Shown here: positions 3,692 through 58,994 of the stretch, piece after piece | Position numbering within the stretch: the stretch's first letter is position 1 | Layout: each line of letters begins with the position of its first letter | DNA from: Treponema sp. Marseille-Q4130 | GTDB taxonomy: Bacteria > Spirochaetota > Spirochaetia > Treponematales > Treponemataceae | Assembly: GCF_014334325.1 (NCBI RefSeq) | Contig: NZ_JACSET010000001.1 | Span: 29,769-93,768, forward strand | Direction: 5' to 3' | DNA: 64,000 bases | Position numbers and translations under genes: made by a program | Notes under the pieces: generated by a model | Databases searched by the model: none | Told to the model about the DNA's origin: nothing | What the model saw: the letters and a program-made list of their open reading frames with translations, nothing else

Positions 3692-3844
3692 ATGAAAGCG
3701 TATATTGAGCAAATTATAAATGTTGCCGCAATATGCGGCGCAAGAGTCGCCTTGGCAAATATCGTCGCACTTGATAATCAACAACTGCGACGCAGACCAT
3801 CGCTCATGACATGTTTTCGTGCTTTTGCTATGATAGGCTTATGA
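3692..3844 (+). pseudogene. Fragment of a DJ-1/PfpI-family gene
   Basis: A 50-codon open frame runs from ATG 3692 to a TGA that overlaps the uppP start. Its first 31 codons match the middle of the PfpI-like protein at 7012-7487: both read K-A-Y-I-E-Q, then V-A-A-I-C-G-A, then L-A-N and A-L-D-N. The match includes the nucleophile elbow Ala-Ile-Cys-Gly-Ala. It stops abruptly after Asp-Asn; the remaining codons resemble nothing. There is no ribosome-binding site and no room for the first or last third of the fold. I read it as a relic of a second copy of the gene, now serving partly as the promoter region of uppP. Confidence 0.7.
3806..3834 (+). promoter_or_regulatory. uppP promoter, leaderless arrangement
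   Basis: ATGACA (3806-3811), a 17-bp spacer ending in TGC, then TATGAT (3829-3834): an extended -10. Six bases separate the -10 from the ATG at 3841, so transcription should start on the A of the start codon. No Shine-Dalgarno is present. Confidence 0.65.
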
Positions 3845-4683
3845 CGATTTTACAAAGCCTTTTGCTCGGCGTCCTTCAGGGCCTAACGGAATTTTTGCCC
3901 GTTTCTTCTTCCGGCCATCTCGCTGTTGCGCAGCATCTGTTTTCGCTCGGCGACGTGCCGCTTTTATTCGATGTATTTCTTCATCTAGCAACGCTCGCCG
4001 CGGTCGTACTCTATTTCAGGCACGATATTCTGAAACTCTTTTCTGCGCTCGGAAAAATGATTACGCGACGCCCCGTCGATTCCGGCGTTTCGGGCGAAAG
4101 CGGTTTGACGAAAACCGATGAAGCTTCCCGAAAAACGGTTGCCGCAGTTATCATCGCAACGCTCGTGACGGGCGTCATCGGCATCGCTGCGGAAAAAATG
4201 CTGCCCTCTCTTTCGATACGCTTTGTGTGCGCCTTCTTTATCGTTACGGCCTGCCTTTTGCTTTTTTCGCAATACATGAGCCGAAAGAGAAAAAGCGCGA
4301 ACGACGGGAAGGGCATTTCACGGAAGCAGGCCCTCGCGGTCGGCATTGCGCAGGGTATCGGAACGCTGCCCGGCATTTCGAGGAGCGGTTCAACCATCGC
4401 AGGCGCTTTGCTTTCAGGCGTCGGACAGGCGGATGCGGGCGAATTTTCGTTTATCGTTTCGATTCCCGCGATACTCGGCGCTTTTATCCTTGAGCTTAAA
4501 GATTTTGATAAAATGTCGGAATCGATCGGCGCGTTGCAAATCGTTGTCGGGTGCACGGCAGCCTTCGTCGTCGGCTGGGCGTCCCTTTCGCTCCTTATGA
4601 AAATTATTAAAAAAGGAAAGCTCGGTTGGTTCGCGTGTTATCTCGTTCCGCTCGGCATAGCGGGATTGTTATTTTTTAAATAA
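3841..4683 (+). CDS. uppP: Undecaprenyl-diphosphatase UppP (BacA)
   Basis: Integral membrane phosphatase that converts undecaprenyl diphosphate to the monophosphate and so recycles the lipid carrier for peptidoglycan; it also confers bacitracin tolerance. The 280-residue protein has the two family signatures: Glu17-Phe-Leu-Pro-Val-Ser-Ser-Ser-Gly-His26 and Pro-Gly-Ile-Ser-Arg-Ser-Gly-Ser-Thr near residue 180, which form the active site. About eight hydrophobic helices follow the family pattern. The frame could start at 3811, but the family N terminus (MTILQSLLLG) and the promoter spacing both favour ATG 3841. A loop near residues 70-95 is longer and more polar than in E. coli UppP. Confidence 0.95.
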   Translation: MTILQSLLLGVLQGLTEFLPVSSSGHLAVAQHLFSLGDVPLLFDVFLHLATLAAVVLYFRHDILKLFSALGKMITRRPVDSGVSGESGLTKTDEASRKTVAAVIIATLVTGVIGIAAEKMLPSLSIRFVCAFFIVTACLLLFSQYMSRKRKSANDGKGISRKQALAVGIAQGIGTLPGISRSGSTIAGALLSGVGQADAGEFSFIVSIPAILGAFILELKDFDKMSESIGALQIVVGCTAAFVVGWASLSLLMKIIKKGKLGWFACYLVPLGIAGLLFFK

Positions 4684-4695
4684 GCGGAGTTAATT

Positions 4696-5247
4696 ATGCA
4701 TTTATCGAAAATTATTAAAATTATAGCGGCAGTGTCGCTGCTTGTTATTGTTTTGCCGGTCGCCGCCGATTCGGACAAAAATTCTTCCATAAAACAGGAA
4801 TGGAAAGAGTTCGGCAAAAAGTCCGCCGACGCCTTAAAATCCTTCGGTAAAGCAATGGGCGAGACGGGTAAAAAAATCGGCGAAGACGTGCAGAACGCGC
4901 TTACGCCGAAATACTACGGAACGTGGGTATACGAAGGAAAAAGCGAAACGACGACCGTCGAAATCAAACAGGATAAAATGATGACGGTCATGCAAAAGGC
5001 GGCGCTCGATATGCGATATTGGAGCGGCACGTATTCGGCGACTCAGGCGCTCATCGTTTTTACCGTCGAAAAATCCGGAACGGATACGGGTTACTCCAGA
5101 AGCGAATCCGATGATGAAAAGACGTGGCGGATTTTATATTCGTTCGACGAAGAAAAGGGTACGCTCACGCTTCGCTGCTCGCATATTCCGACAGACAAAG
5201 ACGGTCACGACTTTTCCGAGCCGACGATTTTCAAAAAACAAAAATAA
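4696..5247 (+). CDS. Secreted protein of unknown function
   Basis: A 183-residue protein that I cannot assign to a family. Residues 1-25 form a Sec signal peptide ending near Val-Ala-Ala-Asp, with no lipobox Cys, so a soluble periplasmic location is likely. A Lys/Gly-rich amphipathic helical stretch (about residues 35-70) precedes a domain that seems to be mostly beta-strands and opens with Tyr-Tyr-Gly-Thr-Trp-Val-Tyr-Glu, a lipocalin-like Gly-x-Trp start. It lies 12 bp after uppP with GGAG upstream of the ATG, so it is probably cotranscribed. A lipocalin-like ligand-binding role would be a guess from the pattern only. Confidence 0.7.
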   Translation: MHLSKIIKIIAAVSLLVIVLPVAADSDKNSSIKQEWKEFGKKSADALKSFGKAMGETGKKIGEDVQNALTPKYYGTWVYEGKSETTTVEIKQDKMMTVMQKAALDMRYWSGTYSATQALIVFTVEKSGTDTGYSRSESDDEKTWRILYSFDEEKGTLTLRCSHIPTDKDGHDFSEPTIFKKQK

Positions 5248-5255
5248 CTGTATAG

Positions 5256-5288
5256 GGCATCTCGAAAAACTCGCCTTTAGCGATTTTT
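5256..5288. repeat. 33-bp dispersed repeat, copy 1
   Basis: GGCATCTCGAAAAACTC followed by CCTTTA and CGATTTTT. The same 33 bases occur at 51341-51373 with two differences. Both copies sit just after a stop codon on the same strand. The T-rich end could act in transcript termination, but the hairpin potential is weak. Confidence 0.65.
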
Positions 5289-5346
5289 CCGGACAGATTA
5301 TTAATTAACAATATAGCTGTCGGAGCCGTTTTGCGGGAGTACGAAT

Positions 5347-6963: not shown

Positions 6964-7011
6964 ATACCGTGTATCATATACGGGGAGTGCAATTCCGAAC
7001 GGAATTCCCCG

Positions 7012-7487
7012 CTAGTTGTTCAGCGACTGCATAAGTTCGAAAAAATATTTAGACTCTTTTGTTGTGTAGAGTTTATACCAATTCATCAAAGTATCTTCAC
7101 CGAACACATTCAACAACTTTAAAACTTCAAATGTAAATTCAAGCGGCGCAATACCTGTTGCCGTAATTAAATTACCGTCCCTTACGACGGGCGTATCTTC
7201 ATATAGATGTTCGCCTTTATAATTTTTGCACACTTGTTTTAAGAATGCCTTATCGTTGCTCGTGTGCTTTTTATTATCAAGAGCGCCGACATTCGCCAAA
7301 CCGAGTGTTGCGCCGCATATTGCGGCAACCTTTATATCTTGCTCAATATATGCTTTCGCTTTTAAGAGGATCGGTTCATGTTCTTTTTCAAACCAATGAT
7401 CGGAACCCGGCAAAATGAGGATATCGCTGTCGGAAATATTCATATCGCCGATACGTCGATCGGGCGTAATCAGGAGTCCGCCCATAG
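7012..7487 (-). pseudogene. DJ-1/PfpI (type 1 glutamine amidotransferase-like) gene, 5' end lost
   Basis: The frame encodes the C-terminal four-fifths of a DJ-1/PfpI-type protein: Ile-Leu-Pro-Gly-Ser-Asp, the nucleophile elbow Ala-Ile-Cys-Gly-Ala, His-Thr-Ser-Asn and Ile-Thr-Ala-Thr-Gly. Family members have about 35-40 further N-terminal residues with the first beta-strand and the Glu of the catalytic site; these are absent. The first Met (7485) is internal to the fold, and directly upstream the sequence switches, in another frame, to the beginning of a methyltransferase gene. It could still be translated from that Met, but a functional enzyme is doubtful. A fragment of a second copy lies at 3692-3844. 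Confidence 0.75.
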
Positions 7488-7627: not shown

Positions 7628-7674
7628 AGTTCCTCTCATATTAATTATTAATTCGACAGCTCGGGAAAAAACGT

Positions 7675-8385: not shown

Positions 8386-9170
8386 TCGGCGAGGATAAAG
8401 TGATTGACGGACTGCAAGCCCGACTCGGGATCGACGTAGCGGCGCAGCTTTGCGTTTCCGACGATTTTTTTCAGATACGTGAGCAGATCGTTGTTTTTCG
8501 CAAGCTGACCGTCGACGGCAAGCATAAAATCGACGGAGCGGCGGACAAAATCCGGTACTTCTTTTACGAAAGTCTGTTCCGATTCGTTTTTAATAATGCC
8601 GTCGATGCCGGCTTCCTGCGCTTTATCGAGCACGATGTCCGCAGTGCCTTCCGTACCCGATACGTCGTCCTGTGAAAAAAACGAAAACACGGGAAACGGA
8701 AAGACGCCGTCGTGTCTGTCCTGCAGGTGAGCGACGCCGAAATGCGTATTTTCCGGTGCGCCGAGCAGGATGAGACCGCGCAATTTTTTTCCCCCGACAA
8801 AGAGCGGCAGCTCCGCCGCAACCGAACGGGAACCGCGTCTGAAATCGTCGGGAAAAACGATCGGTAAAATAAGACCGCCGTCCGAAGCGAATCCGTATTT
8901 TGCCGACAAGGTTTCCGTCATCGAAGCGACAAAAGCCGCCTCGTTATAGCCGTAGCCGAAGAATATGCAGACGACTTCATCGGAACAGTGCCACCGCTGT
9001 GTCGGCAGCTTGAGGTTCGCCGCGTCTTTTCCTGCAGCGGAAACGGGAATCGCCCTTTCTTCAGTTATCACTGAGGCCGACTTCGTTTGTCCGCCGCACG
9101 AAAGCAGGAGGCAACACAGTGCGATTGCAGTAAGCGATATACGGACTTTCATGTTTTTCTGCCAAGCCAT
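8382..9170 (-). CDS. Putative lipoprotein of unknown function
   Basis: A 262-residue protein with a lipoprotein signal: hydrophobic residues 11-23 end in Leu-Leu-Ser-Cys25, followed by Gly-Gly. I do not recognise the family. The body alternates hydrophobic strands and helices (CIFFGYGYNE, LRGLILLGAPENTHFG, FPVFSFFSQDD), reminiscent of a periplasmic-binding-protein-like alpha/beta fold, but this is only an impression. Start at ATG 9170 is chosen because TATACT lies seven bases upstream and no ribosome-binding site precedes either Met; the second Met (9152) would also leave a good signal peptide. The gene forms an operon with the phosphoesterase. Confidence 0.7.
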   Translation of the reverse strand: MAWQKNMKVRISLTAIALCCLLLSCGGQTKSASVITEERAIPVSAAGKDAANLKLPTQRWHCSDEVVCIFFGYGYNEAAFVASMTETLSAKYGFASDGGLILPIVFPDDFRRGSRSVAAELPLFVGGKKLRGLILLGAPENTHFGVAHLQDRHDGVFPFPVFSFFSQDDVSGTEGTADIVLDKAQEAGIDGIIKNESEQTFVKEVPDFVRRSVDFMLAVDGQLAKNNDLLTYLKKIVGNAKLRRYVDPESGLQSVNHFILAD

Positions 9171-9177
9171 TGTCCGA

Positions 9178-9206
9178 AGTATAACGGATTTATCCGGCCA
9201 TGAAAA
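9178..9206 (-). promoter_or_regulatory. Promoter of the lipoprotein/phosphoesterase operon, leaderless arrangement
   Basis: On the minus strand TTTTCA (9206-9201), a 17-bp spacer and TATACT (9183-9178). Seven bases then separate it from the ATG at 9170, and there is no Shine-Dalgarno. Confidence 0.6.
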
Positions 9207-9414: not shown

Positions 9415-9443
9415 TTGTTGATTTGCTCATAATCGAGTATATT
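9415..9443 (+). promoter_or_regulatory. Promoter of the HdeD-like gene, leaderless arrangement
   Basis: TTGTTG (9415-9420), 17-bp spacer, TATATT (9438-9443), then six bases to the ATG at 9450. No ribosome-binding site. The 240 bases between this gene and the divergent lipoprotein hold nothing else I can name, apart from a copy of a short dispersed repeat near 9306-9319. Confidence 0.6.
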
Positions 9444-9449
9444 TACGGT

Positions 9450-10064
9450 ATGAGAAAAACAGATTTTATGCTCGGCGCGCTGCTTGCACTCGTTGCACTC
9501 ATGATGATCATAGCGCCGGAGCAATGTATAAAAGTCGCCGTCATCGCACTCGGTATCGAAGCCGTCATAAACGGTCTATTCAATTTAATTAAAATCCGGC
9601 AGCTCGTCGATGATAAATCCTTTCAACTCACCGTCATCGTTCGAAGTCTTATCAGCATCTTCATCGGCATCCTCGCGATCGTTTTGCCGCTGCGTTTTGC
9701 CGAAGCGATGTGGACGGTTATGCTCTACGTGCTTGCGGCCTACCTTCTTGCGTCGGCCTTCCTCGAACTGTACATGCTTGCAAAACTCCGCGATACGAAT
9801 ATAGAGCGCCGCCGTTATATGCTCGAAGTGATCATATCGTTCGTCGGCGCTATCGTGCTGTTTATCGTTCCGCAGCAGATAGGTCTTGTGCTCGTGCGCA
9901 TCCTCGGTCTTTTGCTGCTTGCGGTCAGCGCGGGATATATACTGTTCGAATGGCATGACCGTCCGATCGTCGTCGATGAAGTCGAAGTCGTCGACGATGT
10001 TCAGCCGCCCGTTTCGGATACGCTGCCGAACAACGATGCAAAAAACCGCCGCACGGAAAAATGA
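9450..10064 (+). CDS. HdeD/DUF308 family membrane protein
   Basis: A 204-residue inner-membrane protein with about six hydrophobic helices arranged as repeated pairs, as in the DUF308 (HdeD) family; the helix pattern starts at residue 6 and ends near 170. A Val/Asp/Glu-rich acidic tail (Val-Asp-Glu-Val-Glu-Val-Val-Asp-Asp) and a polar end face the cytosol. HdeD in E. coli is linked to acid resistance, but most homologues are uncharacterised. The frame could open upstream at 9423, but ATG 9450 is preferred because a -10 sequence lies six bases before it. It is the only gene of its transcript, followed by a hairpin and T-run. Confidence 0.8.
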   Translation: MRKTDFMLGALLALVALMMIIAPEQCIKVAVIALGIEAVINGLFNLIKIRQLVDDKSFQLTVIVRSLISIFIGILAIVLPLRFAEAMWTVMLYVLAAYLLASAFLELYMLAKLRDTNIERRRYMLEVIISFVGAIVLFIVPQQIGLVLVRILGLLLLAVSAGYILFEWHDRPIVVDEVEVVDDVQPPVSDTLPNNDAKNRRTEK

Positions 10065-10156
10065 CGGCAGGGCATTTCTGCCGCTCTTGATCGGCTTTAT
10101 AAATTATTAAATTCGATGTCCGAACGGTGATTCGGAAAAACGTAATGCAGCGGAGT

Positions 10157-13351: not shown

Positions 13352-14648
13352 GGGATGTCCCCGATTCCTGCAGCAACTTCTGCAGTATCGGCTCGGCGTG
13401 CAGTGCATCGGTGAGCGCTTTTGCTTCTCCGCTTGCACGGGCTTCCGCTTGAGCGGCGGCAGCATTCGCTTTTTCGCTTGCTCTTTTTGCCGGCGCACTT
13501 CCTTTTGTACCGCCGCCCGCTTCCCGTTTGACGGCGCGGATCAAAATATTTTTCGGCGTGTGTTCGAGCGCGATGAATTCGAGGAGCTTGACGTCGTACC
13601 CCGCTTTTTCGAGGTATTCGGCACGGAGCGCATCGGTTGCAAGGGCGGCAAAGCGCTCTTTGATGATGCCGTATTTTAAAAGCGGAGCGAACGCGGCGTC
13701 CGCGGTATTTTTATCGAGAGCGGCGTTCAGTTCGTGCTGACAGCAGGGTACGCTTAAAATCGCTTTGCAACCGCAGTTTACGGCATAGGCGAGTGCGTAA
13801 TCGGTCGCCGTATCGCATGCGTGCAGCGTGATGATGATGTCGGCTTTATCTCCGTCCGCATAAGAGGCGATGTCGCCTGCGGCAAAGTCGAGCCCTTCCG
13901 CTCCGAGCGCCGCCGCCGTTTTATTGCAATAAGCGACGACATCTTTTTTCAAATCGAGTCCCGTAATGAGAGCGTCGATTTTTTTTATCTCTTTGAGATA
14001 ATAGTGAAGCGCAAAGGTGAGGTACGATTTTCCCGAGCCGAAGTCGATGATGCGCAGCGGACGCGAACTGCCTGCCGCGCGCATGACAGCAGGAATGATA
14101 TCGTCGATGAATTCGAGAAAGCGGTTTATTTGCCGGAACTTATCGTACTTCGACGCGACGACTTTTCCTTCGGCCGTCATCACTCCGAGAAGCACGAAAA
14201 ACGGCGCGGGCTTTCCTTCGGGGATGAGGTAATTTTTTGTACGGTTGTGTCCTCTCGCACTCGATTGACCGGCGCAGGAATTTTCGCGTTCTGCATCGCC
14301 GCATTCCGTATCACCGCAGTTCGAGCCGAATTGCCGGCGAGGTACGTTTTCGATCGACTTTCGGAGCGTCGTCGTTTTTCCGTTTTTATTTCCGAGTATC
14401 GTGATGATTTCGATTTCCGTACGCTCGACGCAGTTTTTAAACGTCGTACCCGCGTGCGCTTTCAAAAAATCGCCGAATTCTTCTTCCGTGTAATACTCCT
14501 GAAAGACCTGCGTCGCAGTAAATTTTTCCGCAAAATACGCTTTGCCCGAAGAAGCTGCGTGCCGCTTTATTTTTATGCGGGTATACGGTTTGCCCAAAAT
14601 CGCTTCGACGTTTTTTACCGGTTTTGAAAACGTTGCCGAAAGTATCAT
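13338..14648 (-). CDS. SAM-dependent methyltransferase (Methyltransf_32-like)
   Basis: A 436-residue protein whose central domain (about residues 195-375) is a Rossmann methyltransferase: IIDFGSGKSYLTFALHYYL is motif I, then Gly-Leu-Asp-Leu-Lys-Lys, Ala-Gly-Asp-Ile, and the family-specific TLHACDTATD and VPCCQHELN. The last two recall the METTL25/RRNAD1-type Methyltransf_32 family; the substrate is not known. Between residues 100 and 145 is a low-complexity Ser/Arg/Cys insert, and the last 60 residues are Ala/Lys/Glu rich. ATG 14648 is selected because TATACT lies seven bases upstream; the longer frame to 14990 is antisense to parA. The stop lies inside the joint with the Rpn fragment, so the natural C terminus may be altered. 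Confidence 0.85.
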   Translation of the reverse strand: MILSATFSKPVKNVEAILGKPYTRIKIKRHAASSGKAYFAEKFTATQVFQEYYTEEEFGDFLKAHAGTTFKNCVERTEIEIITILGNKNGKTTTLRKSIENVPRRQFGSNCGDTECGDAERENSCAGQSSARGHNRTKNYLIPEGKPAPFFVLLGVMTAEGKVVASKYDKFRQINRFLEFIDDIIPAVMRAAGSSRPLRIIDFGSGKSYLTFALHYYLKEIKKIDALITGLDLKKDVVAYCNKTAAALGAEGLDFAAGDIASYADGDKADIIITLHACDTATDYALAYAVNCGCKAILSVPCCQHELNAALDKNTADAAFAPLLKYGIIKERFAALATDALRAEYLEKAGYDVKLLEFIALEHTPKNILIRAVKREAGGGTKGSAPAKRASEKANAAAAQAEARASGEAKALTDALHAEPILQKLLQESGTSRVYV

Positions 14649-14655
14649 ACTATCG

Positions 14656-14661
14656 AGTATA
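14656..14661 (-). promoter_or_regulatory. -10 element of the methyltransferase gene, leaderless arrangement
   Basis: TATACT on the minus strand, then seven bases to ATG 14648, no Shine-Dalgarno. It faces the parA -10 element across only 19 bp, so the two divergent promoters overlap and may exclude each other. Confidence 0.55.
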
Positions 14662-14677
14662 CTATTTTCCGAAAAAA

Positions 14678-14686
14678 TGATATAGT
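14678..14686 (+). promoter_or_regulatory. parA extended -10 element, leaderless arrangement
   Basis: TGA-TATAGT, with the hexamer at 14681-14686, then seven bases to the ATG at 14694. No ribosome-binding site is present. Confidence 0.55.
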
Positions 14687-14693
14687 AAAGCGT

Positions 14694-15449
14694 ATGGGTA
14701 AATGTCTCGTATTCGTAAATCAAAAAGGCGGCGTCGGCAAGACGACGTCGGTTATCAATATCGGCGCATATATGGCGCTCGCCGGCAAAAAAACGCTCCT
14801 TGTCGATTTCGATCCGCAGGGCAATATGTCCAGCGGCGTCGGAGTGTCGAAAGACAAGCCGACCGTTTACGAGCTCATCGCCGGTCTCGCATCTCCCGCC
14901 GACGTCATCAAACACGCATCGGTAAAAAATCTCGACGCCGTCAGCGCTTCCATCGATTTGTCGGGAGCCGCGATAGAACTCGTCGATCAAAGCGACCGCG
15001 AATTTTACCTCAAAAAATCGCTCGAAAACTTAAAGAACGAATACGATTACATTCTCATCGATTGTCCCCCGTCTCTCGGCATTTTGACGCTGAACGGTCT
15101 TGCCGCCGCGGACGCGGTGCTCGTTCCGATGCAGTGCGAATACTTTGCGCTCGAAGGCATTACGCTCCTGCTCCAGACGGTAAAAAAAGTGCAGCAGGGC
15201 ATCAACAAAAATCTTGTGATCGGCGGTATATTTTTTACGATGTACGATTCGCGCACGCGTCTCGCACAGGATGTCGTAACGCAGGTAAAGTCGTATTTTA
15301 AAGATCTCGTTTTTTCTACGATCATCCCGCGCAACGTGCGTCTTTCAGAAGCGCCGTCCAGAGGTCAGCCGATCTGCGAATACGATCCGTCGTGCGTCGG
15401 AGCGGTCAGTTATAAAAAACTTGCGGAAGAGGTGATGCGCCGTGGCTAA
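14694..15449 (+). CDS. parA: Chromosome-partitioning ATPase ParA (Soj)
   Basis: A 251-residue P-loop ATPase that binds DNA non-specifically and moves ParB-parS complexes to segregate chromosomes. The deviant Walker A motif KGGVGKTT lies at residues 11-18, with Asp-Phe-Asp-Pro-Gln-Gly-Asn (Walker A') at about 39-45 and Ile-Asp-Cys-Pro-Pro-Ser (Walker B) near 122. Length and absence of an N-terminal HTH match the chromosomal Soj type. It overlaps parB by 8 nt. No Shine-Dalgarno is present; the start is set by the -10 element and the family N terminus. Confidence 0.96.
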   Translation: MGKCLVFVNQKGGVGKTTSVINIGAYMALAGKKTLLVDFDPQGNMSSGVGVSKDKPTVYELIAGLASPADVIKHASVKNLDAVSASIDLSGAAIELVDQSDREFYLKKSLENLKNEYDYILIDCPPSLGILTLNGLAAADAVLVPMQCEYFALEGITLLLQTVKKVQQGINKNLVIGGIFFTMYDSRTRLAQDVVTQVKSYFKDLVFSTIIPRNVRLSEAPSRGQPICEYDPSCVGAVSYKKLAEEVMRRG

Positions 15450-20464: not shown

Positions 20465-21514
20465 TTATCTTTTCCCGTCATTTATCTTTTTATACATCGC
20501 GGAGATTTCTTTTTTCCAACGGGTGACAAGGCGCTTGGGAGCAAGCGGTTCGGCTTGAGTTCCCCAGCTTAGGATCAGCTCGAAAATTTTGTCGTACTGA
20601 CTTGAAGAAAATGTGATCAGGGTAGAGTCCTCGTCTTCCGTGAATTTTTGATCGTCCGCCCACTTGTGTTGTTTGATCCACTCCTTTGCGTAGCCGGTAA
20701 ATTTAATTTTATATTTTTCGATCTTATTGCCTTTGTATGCTCCGAGCCGTCCTCCGCCGCAATAGTAAGAGAAGTCGTATTTTTCGGGAAGTTCGAATGC
20801 TTCATCCGTAACGACGATATCCGTCATAAAGTTTAAGTCGTATAAAAGTACAAGGTCGGCGTATTCGCTGTAAGCGAAAAGATACACGGAACCGTTATCC
20901 AACAAAAGTTGATACGGCCGTACGATTCTGAGAGCTTTCGTGTCCGTATATGATTTTGTATAGCGGAAATTGATTTTGTGATTTTTTTGAATCGCTTCGT
21001 AAACCTTATCCCAATTTTTTACATTGACGTCATATTCTATCTGAGGCGGAACGATTACGCGGGCGGAAGATAAAACCGTATCGTCCTTTGCGACCTTGGG
21101 TTCAAGAAAATAAATCAGCTTTGTAACACTGTCGAAGAGGGGCGTGTTTTTGTATTGCTGCAGCAAACCTTTCAAGCCGGCGACTAAAGCGAGGTTTTGC
21201 CGCGTTTTTTTTGAGTAAATCTGTTCGACTTCTTTTTTTATTACGTAGCTTCCGTGAACTTGCCTTTCTTCCAGTAAGTCCATGTCCTTTAGGGTTTTTA
21301 TCGCTCTGAGTATTGTTATGTTGGCAACTTTAAAGTGATTTTCAAAATACTTTGAATTGTATTTGACATCCGGATGATTCGGCGCATCTCGCAGTATGCG
21401 AAGAATTTCGTAGCAGCGCTCGTCAAGTTCAGGATTGAGTTCCTTTTGCAGTTTTTTTTCATCGCGCGTCAGCTGTCTCTGTTTTTTTTCTTCTTCGGAA
21501 AGGGCTTTGCTCAT
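20465..21514 (-). CDS. WYL-domain transcriptional regulator
   Basis: A 349-residue regulator. After a Lys/Glu-rich N-terminal helix comes a winged-helix region (about residues 30-95; Glu-Ile-Leu-Arg-Ile-Leu and Ile-Leu-Arg-Ala-Ile-Lys-Thr-Leu-Lys) and then a WYL domain, recognised by Ile-Asn-Phe-Arg-Tyr near residue 180, Arg-Pro-Tyr-Gln-Leu-Leu and Gly-Ser-Val-Tyr-Leu-Phe-Ala-Tyr, followed by the WCX-like C-terminal region. WYL regulators often sense nucleic-acid ligands and often sit beside defence genes. It converges on the HNH gene with a 6-bp gap and has its own leaderless promoter. Confidence 0.85.
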   Translation of the reverse strand: MSKALSEEEKKQRQLTRDEKKLQKELNPELDERCYEILRILRDAPNHPDVKYNSKYFENHFKVANITILRAIKTLKDMDLLEERQVHGSYVIKKEVEQIYSKKTRQNLALVAGLKGLLQQYKNTPLFDSVTKLIYFLEPKVAKDDTVLSSARVIVPPQIEYDVNVKNWDKVYEAIQKNHKINFRYTKSYTDTKALRIVRPYQLLLDNGSVYLFAYSEYADLVLLYDLNFMTDIVVTDEAFELPEKYDFSYYCGGGRLGAYKGNKIEKYKIKFTGYAKEWIKQHKWADDQKFTEDEDSTLITFSSSQYDKIFELILSWGTQAEPLAPKRLVTRWKKEISAMYKKINDGKR

Positions 21515-21520
21515 AAGTAC

Positions 21521-21529
21521 AGTATAGCA
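21521..21529 (-). promoter_or_regulatory. Extended -10 element of the WYL regulator, leaderless arrangement
   Basis: On the minus strand TGC-TATACT, with the hexamer at 21526-21521, then six bases to the ATG at 21514. There is no Shine-Dalgarno. Confidence 0.6.
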
Positions 21530-21644
21530 CGTAAAACGATTGCGATCATTCGATTTTTATCGCCGAATGCGAGTTCGGAAAGTATCGGCTGATAAAGATG
21601 TGCTTGCGGCGAGAACTTCGTTTTACCGTCGGATTTGCGTTTTG

Positions 21645-24993: not shown

Positions 24994-25887
24994 TTAATCT
25001 TTCGGGCGCAGATAAAATTGGCCGAGTATCTGTTTCGAATGCAGGATATTGATAAATGCAAGCGGGTCGGCTTCTTTTATCTTCCGCGCAACTTTTTGCA
25101 CTTCATCCGCAGCGACAACCGAATACACCAAATCGCGTTCCGCTCCCTGATAGCAGCCCTTGCCTTTAAAGACCGTCGCATCGTGGTTCGTTATTTCATG
25201 AATCGTCCTGTATACGTCGGCGGGACGGTTCGTAATGACAAAGAGCGTCGTCTTTTGATATCGCTTGTATATGGAATTGAGCAGCTGCGTCGCGGAAAAT
25301 TGGAAAAAGATCGAATAGAGTGCGCGCTCCCAACCGAAGATCGCGCCGGCGACCAAAAGGATCGCAGCGTTAAAGACCAGCATATAGTTCCACGCGTCTT
25401 TGCCGTATTTTTCGGAAATGAAAATCGCGATGATTTCGGTACCGCCGCCGCACGCACCTGCACGAAGGCACAGGTATCCGCAAAACGCAGCAATGATACC
25501 GCCGAAAACGGCTGACAGCAGCACGTCGTCGATGATCGCAAAATCGGGAAAGAGGTCGACGAGTACGGAAGAGGTGACGACCATGAGACAGGTGTACAGC
25601 GTAAAACGCCTGCCGATGTATTTAAAACCGATGACGATAGGGATGACGTTCATGACAAGCATGACGGGACTGTACGGAAGCTCAAACGAAAAATACGTCC
25701 GTGCGACGTGCTGAATGAGCAGCGTCAATCCGGTAAAACCGCCGGGGAAGAGATCGCCCGCACGGATAAAGGTTTTCATATTCAACGCCGAGATAACGGC
25801 CGCAATGAGAATGAGCGCTATTCGCCGAAGACTCGCACCGACGCCGCCGACGCGTTCTTTAACAATTTTTTGTACCGCCTGTCGCAT
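24994..25887 (-). CDS. YitT family (DUF161/DUF2179) membrane protein
   Basis: A 297-residue inner-membrane protein. Five to six hydrophobic helices form the YitT membrane region: Asn-Met-Lys-Thr-Phe, Phe-Pro-Gly-Gly-Phe-Thr-Gly, and Gly-Ala-Cys-Gly-Gly-Gly-Thr-Glu-Ile-Ile. The C-terminal cytoplasmic DUF2179 domain (about residues 212-290) has the pattern Lys-Thr-Thr-Leu-Phe-Val-Ile-Thr and Val-Phe-Lys-Gly-Lys-Gly-Cys-Tyr. Function unknown in general. ATG 25887 is chosen over the ATG at 25899 because a full -35/-10 pair ends seven bases before it. Cotranscription with the chemoreceptor downstream is possible, but an inverted repeat lies between. Confidence 0.9.
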   Translation of the reverse strand: MRQAVQKIVKERVGGVGASLRRIALILIAAVISALNMKTFIRAGDLFPGGFTGLTLLIQHVARTYFSFELPYSPVMLVMNVIPIVIGFKYIGRRFTLYTCLMVVTSSVLVDLFPDFAIIDDVLLSAVFGGIIAAFCGYLCLRAGACGGGTEIIAIFISEKYGKDAWNYMLVFNAAILLVAGAIFGWERALYSIFFQFSATQLLNSIYKRYQKTTLFVITNRPADVYRTIHEITNHDATVFKGKGCYQGAERDLVYSVVAADEVQKVARKIKEADPLAFINILHSKQILGQFYLRPKD

Positions 25888-25894
25888 AGGCGCA

Positions 25895-25923
25895 AGCATA
25901 TACTATTTTCGCATTCGTGGCAA
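25895..25923 (-). promoter_or_regulatory. yitT-like gene promoter, leaderless arrangement
   Basis: On the minus strand TTGCCA (25923-25918), 17-bp spacer, TATGCT (25900-25895), then seven bases to ATG 25887. There is no Shine-Dalgarno. Confidence 0.6.
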
Positions 25924-36468: not shown

Positions 36469-36582
36469 GGGAACCTCTCTCAAATCATATCGTTCGATAC
36501 AGCCGCTTTATCCTCTGCCGCTGTTATAAACCGCTATACATACTATTATACACGTTCCTTTAAAATTGTTCCATATTATTGA

Positions 36583-44111: not shown

Positions 44112-44218
44112 TGCGTAAAAGCGGAAGCCGCATACGGCTATAAAGGGAACGGGGACGGTACGCGAAGTAAAGCATAATAATTCGCTTCCCCGGCCGATTT
44201 CCCACTCCGCCGTTTTTG

Positions 44219-44227
44219 TGCTATACT
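44219..44227 (+). promoter_or_regulatory. pth extended -10 element, leaderless arrangement
   Basis: TGC-TATACT, hexamer at 44222-44227, then six bases to the ATG at 44234. No Shine-Dalgarno. The stretch 44112-44218 shows nothing else recognisable. Confidence 0.65.
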
Positions 44228-44233
44228 CCGTCT

Positions 44234-44869
44234 ATGATTCGGCTTGTCGCTTTTCTCGGAAATTACGGGCGCACATACGAAAATACGCGCCACAACGCCG
44301 CGTGGCTTTTTGCGGATTCATTGCCCTTTGCACACCGTCTTTCGTGGCAGCATAAATTCAAAGGCGCTTTTTGTTCGCTCGATGTATCCCGCCTCGCTTC
44401 TTGGGCGGACGAATATCATCTCGGCACTTCAAACGCCCGAATCGCTTCCGACGCGATATATTTTTTAAAGCCCGAAACCTATATGAACGCATCCGGTGAA
44501 AGTATCGGCGAACTCGCAAACTTTTACAAACTCACGGCGGATCACATACTCGTCGTACACGATGAGCTTGAACTTCCGGCTGGCACGATCGGCTTAAAGA
44601 AAGGAGGCGGACTCGGCGGACACAACGGACTGCGTTCGACAAAAGCCGTTTTAAATACGGCGGATTTTTGGAGATTCCGCTTCGGCATCGGGCGGCCGGA
44701 TAATCCCGACGTGGCCGGCTACGTGCTCTCGCCTTTTACAAGCGACGAGCGCATAACGATGGCGCAGACGTTTAGCGCAGCGGCGATCCCGTTTACCGAA
44801 GCAATTCTTTCAAACGATCCGGCAAAACTCGTCGCGGCGTGGGGTAAGAAAAAAGTGTCCGCCGACTGA
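44234..44869 (+). CDS. pth: Peptidyl-tRNA hydrolase
   Basis: Frees tRNA from peptidyl-tRNA that drops off ribosomes; cytosolic monomer. The 211-residue protein keeps Asn10 (Leu-Gly-Asn-Tyr-Gly), catalytic His20 (Thr-Arg-His-Asn), Glu-Thr-Tyr-Met-Asn, Val-His-Asp-Glu-Leu-Glu-Leu-Pro with the catalytic Asp, and Gly-Gly-His-Asn-Gly-Leu-Arg-Ser. The usual glycine after Asn10 is kept but Pro is replaced by Tyr (Asn-Tyr-Gly rather than Asn-Pro-Gly). ATG 44234 gives the family N terminus and sits six bases after the -10 element. It is a single-gene unit. Confidence 0.95.
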   Translation: MIRLVAFLGNYGRTYENTRHNAAWLFADSLPFAHRLSWQHKFKGAFCSLDVSRLASWADEYHLGTSNARIASDAIYFLKPETYMNASGESIGELANFYKLTADHILVVHDELELPAGTIGLKKGGGLGGHNGLRSTKAVLNTADFWRFRFGIGRPDNPDVAGYVLSPFTSDERITMAQTFSAAAIPFTEAILSNDPAKLVAAWGKKKVSAD

Positions 44870-45100
44870 AAGAGGGCAGGCGCGGTACTGCTCCGCATCC
44901 GACAGCCGCGTCATACACGGCGGCTTTGCGGAATAAATTCGCCGTTCGGTTTATTCGTGCGGATGGTTATCTCATATGCCGTGTCGTAACAAAGGGTATT
45001 AAAGCCGACTGCAACCACCTTATGAGAACAACATACTTCGACGCTCTGCGTCGAGGTTGTTGATTAAAAATATCCGCTCGCATATACATCGTATTATCGA

Positions 45101-45106
45101 TATACT
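45101..45106 (+). promoter_or_regulatory. -10 element of the MFS gene, leaderless arrangement
   Basis: TATACT, then seven bases to ATG 45114; no Shine-Dalgarno and no clear -35. The 240 bases from 44870 to here hold no convincing gene; a short inverted repeat (CGACGCT/GCGTCG) lies near 45039-45054. Confidence 0.5.
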
Positions 45107-45113
45107 CTCCGAT

Positions 45114-46277
45114 ATGGTCATGGCGATTCCCGAATTTCTTTTGTTTGCCGTCCACTGCGCTCCGACAGTGTATTTACCGCTGTTTTTAAATACGCTCGGC
45201 TACACGGCGACGGAGATTGGTTTGCTCTTCGCATTTTTCAATGGGGCGGGAATCATCGTGCCGCTGCTCATCGCTCCTTCCCTAACACACGCGAAGCGGC
45301 TCGGCATTGCGCTCTGTGTCATAGCTGCGGGACTTGCTGCGACGCCCGTTTTTCTTTTCCGCAGCAGCGGATTTTTGGCAACGGCTTTGTGTATGTCCGT
45401 GTATGCGTCGTTTCTCCGATCTTCAATTCCGGTTTGCGATTCGATGGTGAATACGGTACTTGCGCTCAAACGGGAACAATACGGTTATGTACGCGGAGCC
45501 GGCAGCGTCGGCTTTATCGCGATGAGCTGTATCATGCAGCGCTTTATCGATTTGAAAAATTGTACACCTCTTGCAATGACCGCGTGGATGAGTTTTCCCG
45601 CTGTGCTCCTCGGTGCGGCAGCTGTTCCTTTTGTTCGATTGCGGCAAAGTCCGCAGAGTATCGAAGAGTATGACGACGGTAATCGTTCCGCTTCGGTCAA
45701 ATCGATTTTGGCGTCTTTCGGCAAAAAATATTATCTCGTGCTGTTTGTCGTTTTTATGCAGTACATCGGCATGGTTCCGGCAAATCAATTCGTATCGCTG
45801 TATGTGCGCGATGCGCTGCACAGCGATAATGTCGGCTTGATATGGGCGATAAGCGTCATAGGGGAAATACCTCTTATGCTTTTCAGCTCTCGATTTATTC
45901 GGCGGTACGGTGCGCTTAAACTTATCTTCTTCGGAACGGCAGCGGTCACCGTTCGTATGTTTGGCTATGCCTTTGTCCCGAATATCGCAGGAGTCGTTTT
46001 CGCTCAGCTTTTCCACAGTGTGACCTTCGGCTTATTTTATCCGGCCTGTATTTCGTTTTGCGCAAAAGGAAAATACGGCCGCCCCCTCGTCGTAAGCATG
46101 ACGCTTTTTGCCGTCATCAACAATCTTGCAAGCGCGGCGGGCGCATCTTTCGGAGGTATGCTCGTCGATGTGGCGGGCTACCGCACTATGTTTTGCACCT
46201 TCGCACTCATACCGCTTGCGGGGCTTGCCGTATACGCTTTCGTGAAACAATCCTCTTCTTGCCTACATAGCGTTTGA
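45114..46277 (+). CDS. Major facilitator superfamily transporter (MFS_1-like / LacY-type)
   Basis: A 387-residue transporter with about twelve hydrophobic helices in two halves, separated by a polar loop around residues 185-205. The start Phe-Leu-Leu-Phe-Ala-Val then Pro-Leu-Phe-Leu-Asn-Thr-Leu-Gly-Tyr-Thr-Ala-Thr-Glu-Ile-Gly-Leu-Leu matches the MFS_1-like (PF12832) and nucleoside/sugar symporter N termini. Substrate unknown. A TTG at 45057 opens the same frame, but ATG 45114 is favoured by the -10 seven bases upstream and by the family N terminus. The fprA-type promoter lies inside the last codons of this gene. Confidence 0.85.
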   Translation: MVMAIPEFLLFAVHCAPTVYLPLFLNTLGYTATEIGLLFAFFNGAGIIVPLLIAPSLTHAKRLGIALCVIAAGLAATPVFLFRSSGFLATALCMSVYASFLRSSIPVCDSMVNTVLALKREQYGYVRGAGSVGFIAMSCIMQRFIDLKNCTPLAMTAWMSFPAVLLGAAAVPFVRLRQSPQSIEEYDDGNRSASVKSILASFGKKYYLVLFVVFMQYIGMVPANQFVSLYVRDALHSDNVGLIWAISVIGEIPLMLFSSRFIRRYGALKLIFFGTAAVTVRMFGYAFVPNIAGVVFAQLFHSVTFGLFYPACISFCAKGKYGRPLVVSMTLFAVINNLASAAGASFGGMLVDVAGYRTMFCTFALIPLAGLAVYAFVKQSSSCLHSV

Positions 46278-46278
46278 C

Positions 46279-46287
46279 TGCTAAAAT
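46279..46287 (+). promoter_or_regulatory. Extended -10 element of the flavoprotein gene, leaderless arrangement
   Basis: TGC-TAAAAT, hexamer at 46282-46287, then six bases to the ATG at 46294. TTGCCT lies 17 bp upstream (46259-46264), inside the MFS gene. No Shine-Dalgarno. Confidence 0.65.
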
Positions 46288-46293
46288 AGCGGT

Positions 46294-47532
46294 ATGAGAA
46301 CTATTTCAATTGCACCATATATTTCCGTCATCCATTCGGATATCCGTCACCAGCCCTTATTCGAAGGCTATTGGTCTATCCCCAGCGGCGTGACGCTCAA
46401 TTCGTATTTTGTGCGCGGAGAAAAAAATGCACTCATCGATCTTACCGCCGACTGGAGCGAAGCCGTCGATCTGCTCGAAAAGCAGCTCGGCGAAATCGAC
46501 GGCGGCGCAAAAATCGACTATCTCATTCTCAATCACCTTGAGCCGGATCACACGGGATTTTTGCCCGAGTTCGTAAAGCGGAATCCGAACGTCGAAATCG
46601 TTGCGACCGCAAAGGGTGCGACCCTCGTAAAAAATTTTATCAAAGCAGCCGACGAATGTCCCTCTCTTAAAATCCGCGAAGTAAAATCGGACGATACGCT
46701 CGATCTCGGCGGCGGCAAAGCGCTCGCGTTTTATGAAATCCCGAACGTGCACTGGCCTGAAACGATGTGCACGTTCGATGCGGACTCGGGAACGCTTTTC
46801 AGCTGCGACGCTTTCGGCGGCTACGGCACGACAGGCGAGCGCGTGTTCGACGACGAATTTTCCGAAAGCGAACTCGCGTCGTTCGAAGAAGAAAGTCTTC
46901 GCTACTATGCAACGATCGTTGCAAGCTTCAGCCCCTTTGTCAAAAAAGCGATCGAAAAATTCCGCGCCGAAAACCTTGCAATCAAAACGATTGCGCCGAG
47001 CCACGGCATCATTTGGAGAGCGCATCCCGAACGGATTATCGCCGCTTACGAACGCTTCGCTTCGTACAATACGACGGGAGCCGGCGAAAAAGAAATCTGC
47101 GTCATCTGCTCGTCCATGTACGGGAACACGAAAAAAGGTGCGGAAGCCATTGTGCACGGCATCAAAGGGACCGACGCTTCGATCAAAGTCGATTTTTTGC
47201 AGGTTCCCGGAACCGACGATTCTCACGTGCTCGCAGCCGCTCTCCGTTCCCGCGGCATCGTCATAGCGGCTCCGACCTACGAATACAAACTCTTTCCGGC
47301 TATGGCGCACATTCTCGACCTCTTTAACCGCAAACACATTACCAGGAAAAAAGCGATTCGCATCGGAAGCTGGGGCTGGTCGGGCGGTGCAAAAAAAGAG
47401 TATGACGAAATCTCCGCGCCGCTCAAGTGGGAACAGTTCGAACAGTACGAATGGCAGGGAGTTCCGACCGAAGCGGATTTACAGGCTCTTGAAAAAAAAG
47501 GTGCGGAGTTTGCCGCCGCCGTTTTAAATTAA
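46294..47532 (+). CDS. A-type flavoprotein (FprA/ROO-like diiron flavoprotein)
   Basis: Cytosolic enzyme that reduces O2 to water or NO to N2O using electrons from rubredoxin or a related donor, protecting anaerobes. The 412-residue protein has the N-terminal metallo-beta-lactamase-like diiron domain (about 1-255): Asn-His-Leu-Glu-Pro-Asp-His near residue 81 gives the HxExDH iron ligands, with further ligands in Pro-Asn-Val-His-Trp-Pro-Glu, Phe-Ser-Cys-Asp-Ala-Phe-Gly and Ser-His-Gly-Ile-Ile-Trp. The C-terminal flavodoxin domain (about 265-412) binds FMN through Ser-Met-Tyr-Gly-Asn-Thr. It lacks extra rubredoxin or flavin-reductase domains, so an external electron donor is needed. Confidence 0.95.
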   Translation: MRTISIAPYISVIHSDIRHQPLFEGYWSIPSGVTLNSYFVRGEKNALIDLTADWSEAVDLLEKQLGEIDGGAKIDYLILNHLEPDHTGFLPEFVKRNPNVEIVATAKGATLVKNFIKAADECPSLKIREVKSDDTLDLGGGKALAFYEIPNVHWPETMCTFDADSGTLFSCDAFGGYGTTGERVFDDEFSESELASFEEESLRYYATIVASFSPFVKKAIEKFRAENLAIKTIAPSHGIIWRAHPERIIAAYERFASYNTTGAGEKEICVICSSMYGNTKKGAEAIVHGIKGTDASIKVDFLQVPGTDDSHVLAAALRSRGIVIAAPTYEYKLFPAMAHILDLFNRKHITRKKAIRIGSWGWSGGAKKEYDEISAPLKWEQFEQYEWQGVPTEADLQALEKKGAEFAAAVLN

Positions 47533-53304: not shown

Positions 53305-53328
53305 GTGCCGAAAATACCGGTAGATCAA

Positions 53329-53535: not shown

Positions 53536-54171
53536 TCACAACACCAACGACACGACTTTATTGACAAAGGCGCCGATAGGAATAAAGTCGATGCCTGTCG
53601 CCCGCTCGGCTGCGATGAGGGCAAACAAAGCGAAAGTGCCCCATTGCATGAAGCGCGCTTCTTTTTCTTTGCTGAGGTTCATTCCCGAAAAAAACACGTG
53701 ACTTCCGTCGAGCGGCGGGATGGGCAAAATATTGAAAATAAACAATCCGAGATTGATCGTCGCCGTATACAGGATCACGTAAAAAACGGTTCGATACACG
53801 GCGAACAGCGGCAGCGACGAAAAACTCACGCCTGCAAGCCTGAACAATTTTACGATAAAAAGAGAGACGATGCCGAGTACGAGATTTGACAGCGGACCTG
53901 CAAGCGCGATGATGACTCTGTCCCGTCTCGGATGCGCCAAGTTTCGCGGGTCGAACGAAACGGGTTTTGCCCAGCCGAAACCCGCGATGACGATGAACAG
54001 AAAACCGATCGGGTCGATATGCTTGAGCGGATCGAAGGTGAGTCTTCCGTCCGCTTTTGCCGTTCCGTCTCCGAGCTTGTACGCGGCGAGTGCGTGGCAG
54101 TATTCGTGCAGCGTAAGCCCGATGACGATCCCGGGCAGGGAATACAATGTATCGATGAGGTCGAAATGCAT
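53536..54171 (-). CDS. Site-2 protease family (M50) membrane metalloprotease
   Basis: A 211-residue intramembrane zinc protease of the short M50 type (Rce-like, without PDZ). The zinc site is Leu-His-Glu-Tyr-Cys-His near residue 20 (HExxH with Cys at the fourth position), with a later Asn-x-Leu-Pro-Ile-Pro-Pro-Leu-Asp-Gly-Ser-His supplying the Asp ligand. Four to six hydrophobic helices surround them. ATG 54171 is chosen because a -35/-10 pair ends seven bases upstream; ATG 54180 is possible, but the frame open to 54573 is antisense-like noise over the next gene. Substrate unknown; family members cleave membrane-bound regulators. Confidence 0.88.
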   Translation of the reverse strand: MHFDLIDTLYSLPGIVIGLTLHEYCHALAAYKLGDGTAKADGRLTFDPLKHIDPIGFLFIVIAGFGWAKPVSFDPRNLAHPRRDRVIIALAGPLSNLVLGIVSLFIVKLFRLAGVSFSSLPLFAVYRTVFYVILYTATINLGLFIFNILPIPPLDGSHVFFSGMNLSKEKEARFMQWGTFALFALIAAERATGIDFIPIGAFVNKVVSLVL

Positions 54172-54178
54172 ACGAAAC

Positions 54179-54207
54179 ATTGTATTGTATTTTTGCGGCG
54201 GCGGCAA
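54179..54207 (-). promoter_or_regulatory. Promoter of the site-2 protease gene, leaderless arrangement
   Basis: On the minus strand TTGCCG (54207-54202), 17-bp spacer, TACAAT (54184-54179), then seven bases to ATG 54171. No Shine-Dalgarno. Confidence 0.6.
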
Positions 54208-54236
54208 TGCGTGCACAACGCCTATTTTCGCCTGTC

Positions 54237-57034: not shown

Positions 57035-57095
57035 CGTATGTTCCTCATTGTTTCCTTGTAGTTATAATACATAAAAAGGCGCAAAATTACACCGG

Positions 57096-57124
57096 TTGCA
57101 ATTCCTTGTACCATTGAGTACACT
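57096..57124 (+). promoter_or_regulatory. Promoter of the anchored protein gene, leaderless arrangement
   Basis: TTGCAA (57096-57101), 17-bp spacer, TACACT (57119-57124), then seven bases to ATG 57132. No Shine-Dalgarno. It lies back-to-back with the TPR gene's leader. Confidence 0.6.
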
Positions 57125-57131
57125 GTCGGCA

Positions 57132-58994
57132 ATGTACGGGAATATCATCAGAAAGTCGCTGGGGCTCCTTTTTGCATATATCGTTATAATTGTCGGCATT
57201 TTTATCCTGCAATTTAGAAGCGATTCCATTATATCTGAGAAGATAGGAAATCTTCGCATATCGCTCGCCGAAACGCGTGGAGAGGACGGTACGACCGTTT
57301 TACGGAATCGGATGATCGCGTCTTTTAACGGTATCACGTTTACCGCCGACGATACGCATCCCCTGAGCCTTGCCGTGCGCGGGGATCGGAACCGTCGGAA
57401 CCTTGCACTCCTGTCGTGGAAAAAGCCGACCCCGCGTTCCTGCGAATTCGCGTTCGACGGCGGCGTTTTGCTTTCGTTTGCGGTGAGCGGCAGCGGAGAC
57501 GCGGAGCGTTTGACCGTACACGCTTTCCTTCCGGAAAACGCCGACGACGTGCGGCTGCACTATGAAATCGTTCCGGGAGCGGCCGTCGTTTCGGAAACCG
57601 ATACCCACGTACAGCTCGATATCAGAAACAGCCGATGGGAATTCGAAGCTGCGGAAATATCGGATGCTGCGGTTGCGTTTACTTCCCATGCTTCCGTCGC
57701 GTCATATTCGTATTACGATGCGACGAAAAAATTCTCGTTTGAAAATACGGCACGTTTTGCCTCTGCCGAGCGGAGCGCGTATTCGGTTACGGTCGCCGCT
57801 TTTAAGCAGAATTTAATAACGGCCTTTGCCGGCCAGCAGGATATCACCGAGCAGGAAGCCGTTTCGTTTGTCGCCGCGATGTCCGAGCGCGGTCGCTACA
57901 ACGAAGCGATCAACGCGGTGCCTTCCTCATTCAGGCGCGGAGTGCAGCGCACCTATTTTTCATCTCCGTATTTCGATTCCCTTGCGACGATGAACCGTTC
58001 GCTCGAACAGCAGATCGCACGCTGCCGCGATATCGTTGCGCAGAACACGATCGATGCGTTTGCCGTTTCCGACATCGTCGACTATATGTGTATGCATCCG
58101 AGATCTTCTGCTGTCAGAACGCTGCTTGCGACCGCGGCCGCCGTCAAGGAGAACTCGCTTACCGTTTCGCAGGCTGCATCGATCCTCGCGGCTTACGATT
58201 CGCTCCTTGCCAAAAACGGCGATTTGGCTGCAATAGTGCAGGGTGCCGCCCAAGTCTGCATCGATAAAATTACCGAGTCCTGTTCCGTCGAAAACGAAAG
58301 GATTACGATTTCCGAAAACGGTGTTTTCGTATCGGTCGTTCAGGCTGCGGAAATAGGGGATGCGCTTGTGCGTTACGGGCGTGCATCGGGGAACGTTGCG
58401 CTCGAGCGGGGCGGCTACGTGATATTGAATTCGTACCTCGCCGAAAGCGCTTCGTTCGATCTCCGTACGCTCGCCGCTTTGTATCCGATCGTCGTACACG
58501 ATAATCCGTACTATCCGCACTTCGCGCTCCTCGGTTTTGACAACGGGAATCCGGTGTGGGCGTGGACATGTGCGGCGAATATGACGTACCGAAACGACGG
58601 CAGCGGTACGGTTACGGTGACGATCGATTTTCCCCAGTCCTATACGCATTACGTTATCATAAACGGCATACAGCACTTCAAAACGATTTACATTTACGAT
58701 ATGGCATTCCGCACTGACCCGCGCTTCGAAACGTATAATTCGTCGGGCTATGTGTACCGCGCGGACACGAATACGCTGCTTTTAAAGTCGCGCCACAAAT
58801 CGCAGATAGAGACGATACGCTTTATCTATTCCGACGCGGCGAGAGAAGCGGCCGAACGCAGGACGATCACCGAAACCGATGCGGCCGGCAATGTCATAGC
58901 GCCTCCGCCCGAACCGCGCTCTCCTTCAAGCGCGCTTCCCGAAGGCAATATCCCGATGTCCACGGGCAATGCGTCTCCCGAATCCGCCGAATGA
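57132..58994 (+). CDS. Membrane-anchored protein of unknown function
   Basis: A 620-residue protein with a single N-terminal anchor (about residues 8-28) and the rest predicted periplasmic. The first part (about 35-230) is beta-rich, the middle (230-400) helical, and the C-terminal part again beta-rich with a Tyr-rich conserved-looking stretch (Tyr-Ile-Tyr-Asp-Met-Ala-Phe-Arg-Thr-Asp-Pro-Arg), before a Pro/Ser/Glu-rich tail. I do not recognise the family. A TTG at 57096 opens the frame but coincides with the -35 element; ATG 57132 is chosen from promoter spacing. Confidence 0.75.
   Translation: MYGNIIRKSLGLLFAYIVIIVGIFILQFRSDSIISEKIGNLRISLAETRGEDGTTVLRNRMIASFNGITFTADDTHPLSLAVRGDRNRRNLALLSWKKPTPRSCEFAFDGGVLLSFAVSGSGDAERLTVHAFLPENADDVRLHYEIVPGAAVVSETDTHVQLDIRNSRWEFEAAEISDAAVAFTSHASVASYSYYDATKKFSFENTARFASAERSAYSVTVAAFKQNLITAFAGQQDITEQEAVSFVAAMSERGRYNEAINAVPSSFRRGVQRTYFSSPYFDSLATMNRSLEQQIARCRDIVAQNTIDAFAVSDIVDYMCMHPRSSAVRTLLATAAAVKENSLTVSQAASILAAYDSLLAKNGDLAAIVQGAAQVCIDKITESCSVENERITISENGVFVSVVQAAEIGDALVRYGRASGNVALERGGYVILNSYLAESASFDLRTLAALYPIVVHDNPYYPHFALLGFDNGNPVWAWTCAANMTYRNDGSGTVTVTIDFPQSYTHYVIINGIQHFKTIYIYDMAFRTDPRFETYNSSGYVYRADTNTLLLKSRHKSQIETIRFIYSDAAREAAERRTITETDAAGNVIAPPPEPRSPSSALPEGNIPMSTGNASPESAE

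Follow-up and report, generated by a model that had tools for sequence, protein, structure and literature searches.

Leaderless transcription is predicted to be used by 21.6% of bacterial species according to GeneMarkS-2 (as cited in PMC9581028). One of the closest described systems is that of the bacterial TA-led genes, in which a TANNNT hexamer about 12 bp before the start was read as leaderless (Zheng et al. 2011, PMC3160421). Such genes were reported in 6 of 18 spirochaete genomes with a mean of 3.9% of genes (range 1.8–6.9), and the mean for Deinococcus-Thermus was 39.4%; the word Treponema has no occurrence in the main text of that paper. In Leptospira interrogans, differential RNA sequencing (dRNA-seq) gave about 440 genes with a 5′ untranslated region shorter than 10 nt, and the 5′ end fell exactly at the start codon in 184 genes at 30 °C and 170 genes at 37 °C (PMC5243855). 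Mycobacterium tuberculosis has a large leaderless class, and a legend in the paper describing it shows divergent promoters lying close together, as well as two leaderless genes transcribed divergently (PMC3898074). Herein, we analyzed a 64,000-nt stretch of Treponema sp. Marseille-Q4130 (the window; contig NZ_JACSET010000001.1, positions 29,769 to 93,768), before twelve genes of which an earlier note had described a leaderless promoter architecture with a −10 hexamer ending 6–7 nt before the ATG. Our results indicate that such boxes are very probably sigma-70-type promoters producing leaderless mRNAs, which would make up a minority of about 9% of genes, with Shine-Dalgarno (SD) initiation used otherwise.

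The placement of TANNNT in this Treponema is the same as in the TA-led genes (PMC3160421). By our count, leaderless genes are commoner here than the 2011 phylum range, at about 9% net obtained with another method and sample, and they carry a clear −35 element at 17 bp. L. interrogans belongs to the same phylum; leaderless mRNAs were mapped there, whereas ours are predicted from sequence, and its report, in the part available, found no promoter motif besides sigma-54 sites (PMC5243855), while both boxes are clear in Treponema. M. tuberculosis resembles Treponema in its closely placed divergent promoters and divergent leaderless pair, but the same legend includes a leaderless mRNA at a Val start codon (PMC3898074), whereas the Treponema signal is found at ATG only. 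The earlier note knew of no description of leaderless mRNAs as a dominant mode in treponemes. No paper on leaderless mRNAs in treponemes was found in the literature by title and abstract start, with subscription papers mostly outside the search; the kind itself is already known in spirochaetes (PMC3160421, PMC5243855), and the novelty had been overstated. Among related papers, in the text available, "leaderless" refers to peptides in PMC9200625 and occurs only within a reference title in PMC12687308, and a T. pallidum transcriptome paper mentions start-site prediction in its methods (PMC12223175). Less expected features are divergent double-leaderless promoters of about 45 bp, use at ATG only, and a status that is labile between species.

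The distance test against shuffled upstream regions that the earlier note had proposed at genome scale was run on 30% of the 2.79-Mb genome (844,667 bases in stretches). Genes were called by our own codon-usage gene finder, which uses no upstream signal; 616 starts were called, 579 of them with an ATG candidate, and boxes were counted gene by gene at each distance from plausible start codons. Strong TANNNT boxes lay 12–13 nt before ATG in 57 of 579 genes, whereas 200 dinucleotide shuffles gave 9.1 on average and 18 at most. For any TANNNT, the same shuffles gave a mean of 37.0 and a maximum of 53 against 89 observed, and at the middle threshold 80 genes were observed against a shuffle mean of 25.3. 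Position by position, any box occurred 44 times at 13 nt and 50 times at 12 nt, with a mean of 19.3 per position farther upstream (maximum 30), and strong boxes occurred 24 and 33 times (upstream mean 6.8, maximum 15). The neighboring offsets −11 and −14 were at or below background, with 5 and 12 for any box and 0 and 6 for strong boxes. No box excess was found before GTG or TTG starts (18 versus about 23 expected, 405 genes). The 4,089 internal ATGs showed no comparable peak, with 16 boxes at 13 nt, 9 at 12 nt, a mean of 8.7, and up to 18 at other positions. Four 50-kb stretches of E. coli K-12 treated in the same way also had no excess (any box 6 versus about 10 expected, strong 1 versus about 2; 144 genes). 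The net excess is about 50 of 579 genes, or about 9%, and the architecture called widespread in the window is thus found well beyond it in the sampled 30% of the genome.

Promoter features were next to these boxes. Rows were chosen by hexamer (TANNNT agreeing with TATAAT at one or more additional positions), giving 86 candidate rows, or 80 genes at one row per gene; the −35 score helped choose in the few genes with two candidates. Control boxes (n = 456) lay at other distances from the start, and operons and first genes were deduced solely from gene direction and distance. TTG occurred at a spacer of exactly 17 bp from the box in 31 of 80 genes, compared with 0–3 at every other spacer from 12 to 23. 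At least four TTGACA matches at 16–18 bp were present in 51% of all 86 rows, where the −35 score played no part in the choice, versus 18% of control boxes, and an extended TGn in 26% versus 5%. Two-element promoters (TTG, 17 bp, TANNNT) numbered 15 at −13 and 16 at −12 before ATG, versus 1–2 per offset from −100 to −17 and 3.5 per offset at −16/−15. The upstream neighbor was divergent in 65% of rows, compared with 34% of control boxes and 26% of 579 ATG starts. A very unlikely alternative is that TANNNT acts in translation, as an AT-rich signal recognized, for instance, by ribosomal protein S1, and not as a promoter. An AT-rich upstream bias in non-SD genes of some bacteria has been discussed as an S1 or promoter signal (PMC5397173). 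Here, however, the −35 element at exactly 17 bp and the extended TG go with the box, and a same-strand upstream gene lies within 50 nt of only 5% of rows; the corresponding shares are 19% for control boxes and 34% for ATG starts overall. The S1 signal was rejected as the main explanation on these three grounds.

A gap of 6–7 nt between the −10 box and the transcription start is usual for sigma-70. With the −10 element placed 6–7 nt before ATG, a leaderless mRNA is therefore expected; RNA polymerase would most likely begin at the A of ATG itself, and otherwise no more than a few nucleotides away. In other bacteria, a 5′-terminal AUG is entered by 70S ribosomes or through a 30S/IF2/initiator-tRNA route, and the Treponema messages would presumably be bound in one of these ways without an SD. 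The computed basis consists of the phase-locked box, the −35 element at 17 bp, use at ATG only, first-gene bias, and presence in relatives. The leaderless promoter architecture of the earlier note is upheld in its sigma-70-type layout and first-gene bias; the transcript 5′ end at the start codon and the translation route are inferred.

Within the window, the hexamers, 6–7 nt gaps, ATGs, strands, and positions of all twelve sites match the sequence, and a recount gives five TATACT hexamers, as had been claimed. The sites and the region between the two closest ones are as follows.

3806..3843, plus strand: uppP promoter and start; −10 TATGAT at 3829–3834, extended TG, 6 nt to ATG at 3841; Pfam BacA/UppP.
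9168..9206, minus strand: promoter and start of a putative lipoprotein (name from the earlier note); −10 TATACT at 9183–9178, 7 nt to ATG at 9170.
9415..9452, plus strand: promoter and start of a DUF308 (HdeD-like) gene; −10 TATATT at 9438–9443, 6 nt to ATG at 9450; Pfam match.
14646..14684, minus strand: promoter and start of a methyltransferase gene; −10 TATACT at 14661–14656, 7 nt to ATG at 14648; overlaps the parA promoter; Pfam match.
14658..14696, plus strand: parA promoter and start; −10 TATAGT at 14681–14686, extended TG, 7 nt to ATG at 14694; kept in relatives; Pfam match.
14649..14693, no strand: parA/methyltransferase intergenic region, 45 bp between divergent ATGs; both −10 boxes inside; palindrome AGTATACT at 14656–14663.
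21512..21549, minus strand: promoter and start of a WYL regulator; −10 TATACT at 21526–21521, extended TG, 6 nt to ATG at 21514; Pfam match.
25885..25923, minus strand: promoter and start of a YitT-family gene; −10 TATGCT at 25900–25895, 7 nt to ATG at 25887; Pfam match.
44199..44236, plus strand: pth promoter and start; −10 TATACT at 44222–44227, extended TG, 6 nt to ATG at 44234; Pfam match.
45078..45116, plus strand: promoter and start of an MFS transporter; −10 TATACT at 45101–45106, 7 nt to ATG at 45114; Pfam match.
46259..46296, plus strand: promoter and start of an ODP-family gene (flavoprotein in the earlier note); −10 TAAAAT at 46282–46287, extended TG, 6 nt to ATG at 46294; Pfam match.
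54169..54207, minus strand: possible promoter and start of an M50 site-2 protease, the weakest case; −10 TACAAT at 54184–54179, 7 nt to ATG at 54171; Pfam match.
57096..57134, plus strand: promoter and start of an anchored protein (name from the earlier note); −10 TACACT at 57119–57124, 7 nt to ATG at 57132.

The gene finder returned 11 of the 12 ATGs as candidate starts and missed the MFS start. Many of the sites had been credited with a −35 or an extended TGn, and we counted at least 4/6 TTGACA matches at 16–18 bp in 7 of 11 sites and TGn in 5 of 11. Ten of the twelve genes have a Pfam match (UppP/BacA, DUF308, methyltransferase, ParA-type ATPase, WYL, YitT, peptidyl-tRNA hydrolase, MFS, ODP-family metallo-beta-lactamase-fold, and M50 protease); the Pfam scan gave no match for the putative lipoprotein and the anchored protein. 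It is most improbable that the class as a whole consists of chance boxes at misplaced starts, the best having been picked from many AT-rich upstream regions. About 4% of genes carry such a box by chance, the start of the site-2 protease is doubtful (a second in-frame ATG lies 9 nt upstream of the claimed one), and the window is denser in candidates than the rest of the sample (11/43 versus 69/573 genes, p 0.017). However, the excess of about 50 genes over the shuffles refutes chance for the whole class, the box is kept at parA in relatives, and Pfam domains begin near residue 1 in several of the genes (pth at 4, parA at 3, Ham1 at 3, and pyruvate kinase at 4). At the middle threshold, chance would account for about two of the 43 genes that the finder called in the window, and it may therefore explain one or two of the listed twelve.

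The parA and methyltransferase genes diverge from a 45-bp spacer, measured from ATG to ATG, and the box rule classes both as leaderless. The −10 box of either promoter falls roughly where the other has its −35, partly as the palindrome AGTATACT. RNA polymerase covers more DNA than this spacer, so the two promoters should exclude each other. In a check of parA loci in relatives (103 of 110 processed), a methyltransferase match was present in the available parA flank at 49 of 103 loci. At 12 of these 49, this genome included, the match started from residue 1 with a spacer of 43–57 bp; at the others, the spacer was shorter or longer, or the methyltransferase start was not matched. By eye, at least five loci (L082, L090, L132, L148, and L162) follow the 6–7 nt rule on both sides. 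One methyltransferase relative (L287, in genome G018), as read, contains a single in-frame TAA. Of the 77 divergent pairs in the Marseille-Q4130 sample, 5 have starts no more than 75 bp apart; three of these are double leaderless (45, 47, and 45 bp), one is one-sided, and one is neither. Elsewhere, double-leaderless short pairs were 3 of 3 in G001 (46, 56, and 65 bp), 1 of 3 in G036, 0 of 1 in G018, and none in G033 or G026, and the G015 sample had no divergent pair within 75 bp. TATACT, often within AGTATACT, stands at the −35 position of the parA promoter (14656–14663) and was also seen in the parA upstream regions L083–L191. It persists in relatives even with a more distant divergent gene start, with a strong-box peak at offsets −36/−35. 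Its role may be that of a −10 serving both directions, or of an operator.

The parA box was followed across relatives. Those from the contig search were the best 80 of 586 confirmed matches, a set that leans to close relatives and whose species may overlap with the genome-search set. From 108 parA loci (L181, with its 5′ end cut, was excluded beforehand), 9 without a start codon at the assumed position and 3 that were duplicates or contained N were removed, leaving 96. Among the matches listed, 84 of the 96 distinct upstream regions, mostly of close relatives, carried the box at a distance of 11–15 nt from the start, 67 of them strictly at 12–13 nt; at offsets away from the promoter it occurred in about 2 of 96, and an SD core was present in 4. 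Six genomes of other families are among the 12 that lack the box at this distance, as is a sequence carrying the label Treponema denticola. These counts bear on a variant of the leaderless explanation, in which the promoters are real and initiation occurs nearby, giving leaders of 1–5 nt that would still be translated without an SD. Boxes at −14 in 10 and at −15 in 8 of the listed parA upstream regions are in its favor, as are the seven two-element promoters at −16/−15 in this genome, above the 1–2 per offset farther up. On the other hand, the peak in this genome is restricted to −13/−12, with nothing above background at −11/−14, and a gap of 6–7 nt is the ordinary sigma-70 spacing. We consider this variant unlikely, though not negligible, and initiation at the start codon itself is preferred.

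The same sharp box peak was found in 200-kb samples of three other Treponema genomes (G015, G001, and G018), with a net 14/123, 15/137, and 12/132 genes, respectively. Outside the family, it was moderate in G033 (net 10/115 genes) and weak in G036 (net 4/95). The G026 sample (guanine-cytosine (GC) content 69%) yielded 41 genes with ATG candidates. Among the matches listed, the window parA is closest to that of Treponema sp. RGIG3398 from goat reticulum (88% identity), and the source is therefore probably a rumen-type Treponema.

Several observations weigh against the leaderless interpretation. The two-element peak at −13/−12 is small in the smaller samples of relatives (G015 4+5, G001 1+2, G018 2+3, G033 3+3, and G036 0+2). 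The gene finder calls few genes (616 in 845 kb), and errors in start choice dilute or shift the counts. The earlier note's statement that the listed genes lack an SD agrees with 0 of 86 candidate rows, an absence that is partly forced, as the box occupies the SD position. A pyrimidine at −1 was found in 81% of leaderless candidates versus 66% of SD-led genes (p 0.015), as would be expected if transcription began at the A of ATG, but the bias is modest and not strong. Relatives of uppP are mostly SD-led, all nine relatives found for the ODP-family gene, from other families, have an SD core, and both relatives found for the site-2 protease are without a box at the ATG, one of them with an SD core. 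By eye, pth is leaderless-like in roughly a third of genus relatives and elsewhere stands behind another gene or an SD, and among 11 YitT relatives, 5 carry a box ahead of an in-frame ATG. The mixed relatives of uppP, pth, YitT, and the ODP-family gene make leaderless status labile between species; as predicted from these sites, it is gained and lost, and parA is a stable exception. The ODP-family gene (46294–47532, plus strand) had no match at E 1e-60 in the 17 genus relatives searched, whereas 9 of the 12 genomes searched from other families gave one, a distribution that suggests transfer or repeated loss.

Among apparent first genes, leaderless candidates numbered 66 of 341, and among divergently transcribed genes 51 of 150, both before deducting the chance rate of about 4%; the net share of the latter is about 30%. 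An SD core precedes 256 of the 616 starts called, and the anti-SD tail of the 16S gene is intact. Loss of the anti-SD was rejected as a cause of the leaderless genes on account of this tail. Leaderless initiation had been proposed as a dominant mode, but at a net of about 9% of genes it does not reach that level (at least one third of genes, or a larger share than SD), and SD-led genes are commoner. The two modes coexist, leaderless initiation being the minor but still sizeable one. Outside the window, 34 candidates combine a strong box with a −35 or TG; 31 lie within one stretch, 30 were scanned, and 28 of these have a Pfam match (E 1e-5). The matched genes include ffh, argS, a class I tRNA synthetase (W/Y type), two Mur-ligase proteins, pyruvate kinase, and cheA, and the leaderless candidates take in several housekeeping genes. 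Codon bias was 0.146 in leaderless candidates versus 0.165 in SD-led genes (p 0.005), and the remaining genes also had 0.146; this is no more than a hint of lower expression than in SD-led genes.

Taken jointly, a tentative reading, possible but not favored, is that leaderless ATG initiation is old and stable for particular treponeme housekeeping genes such as parA, and that spacers of about 45 bp evolved as single bidirectional leaderless promoters. Each −10 would then lie at the −35 of the other promoter, one gene would be served at a time, and the product ratio would be set by competition.

Two further observations concern the window and the sample. The largest open frame of the window, of 2,408 aa, lies at 29257–36483 on the minus strand. 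A contig of 5,614 bases (C9, stretch L020) has a GC content of 31%, versus about 46–52% in other sampled stretches, and could represent a mobile element or a contig of foreign origin.

Our findings may have practical consequences for treponeme biology. Automatic annotation that expects an SD may misplace the starts of leaderless genes, and designs for expression in treponemes would have to allow for leaderless initiation. According to work cited in PMC9581028, leaderless messages evade some inhibitors of initiation, and such escape could be tested in culturable, non-pathogenic rumen treponemes. The conserved leaderless parA and the 45-bp double promoters provide test cases for the coexistence and interchange of leaderless and SD initiation in one lineage.

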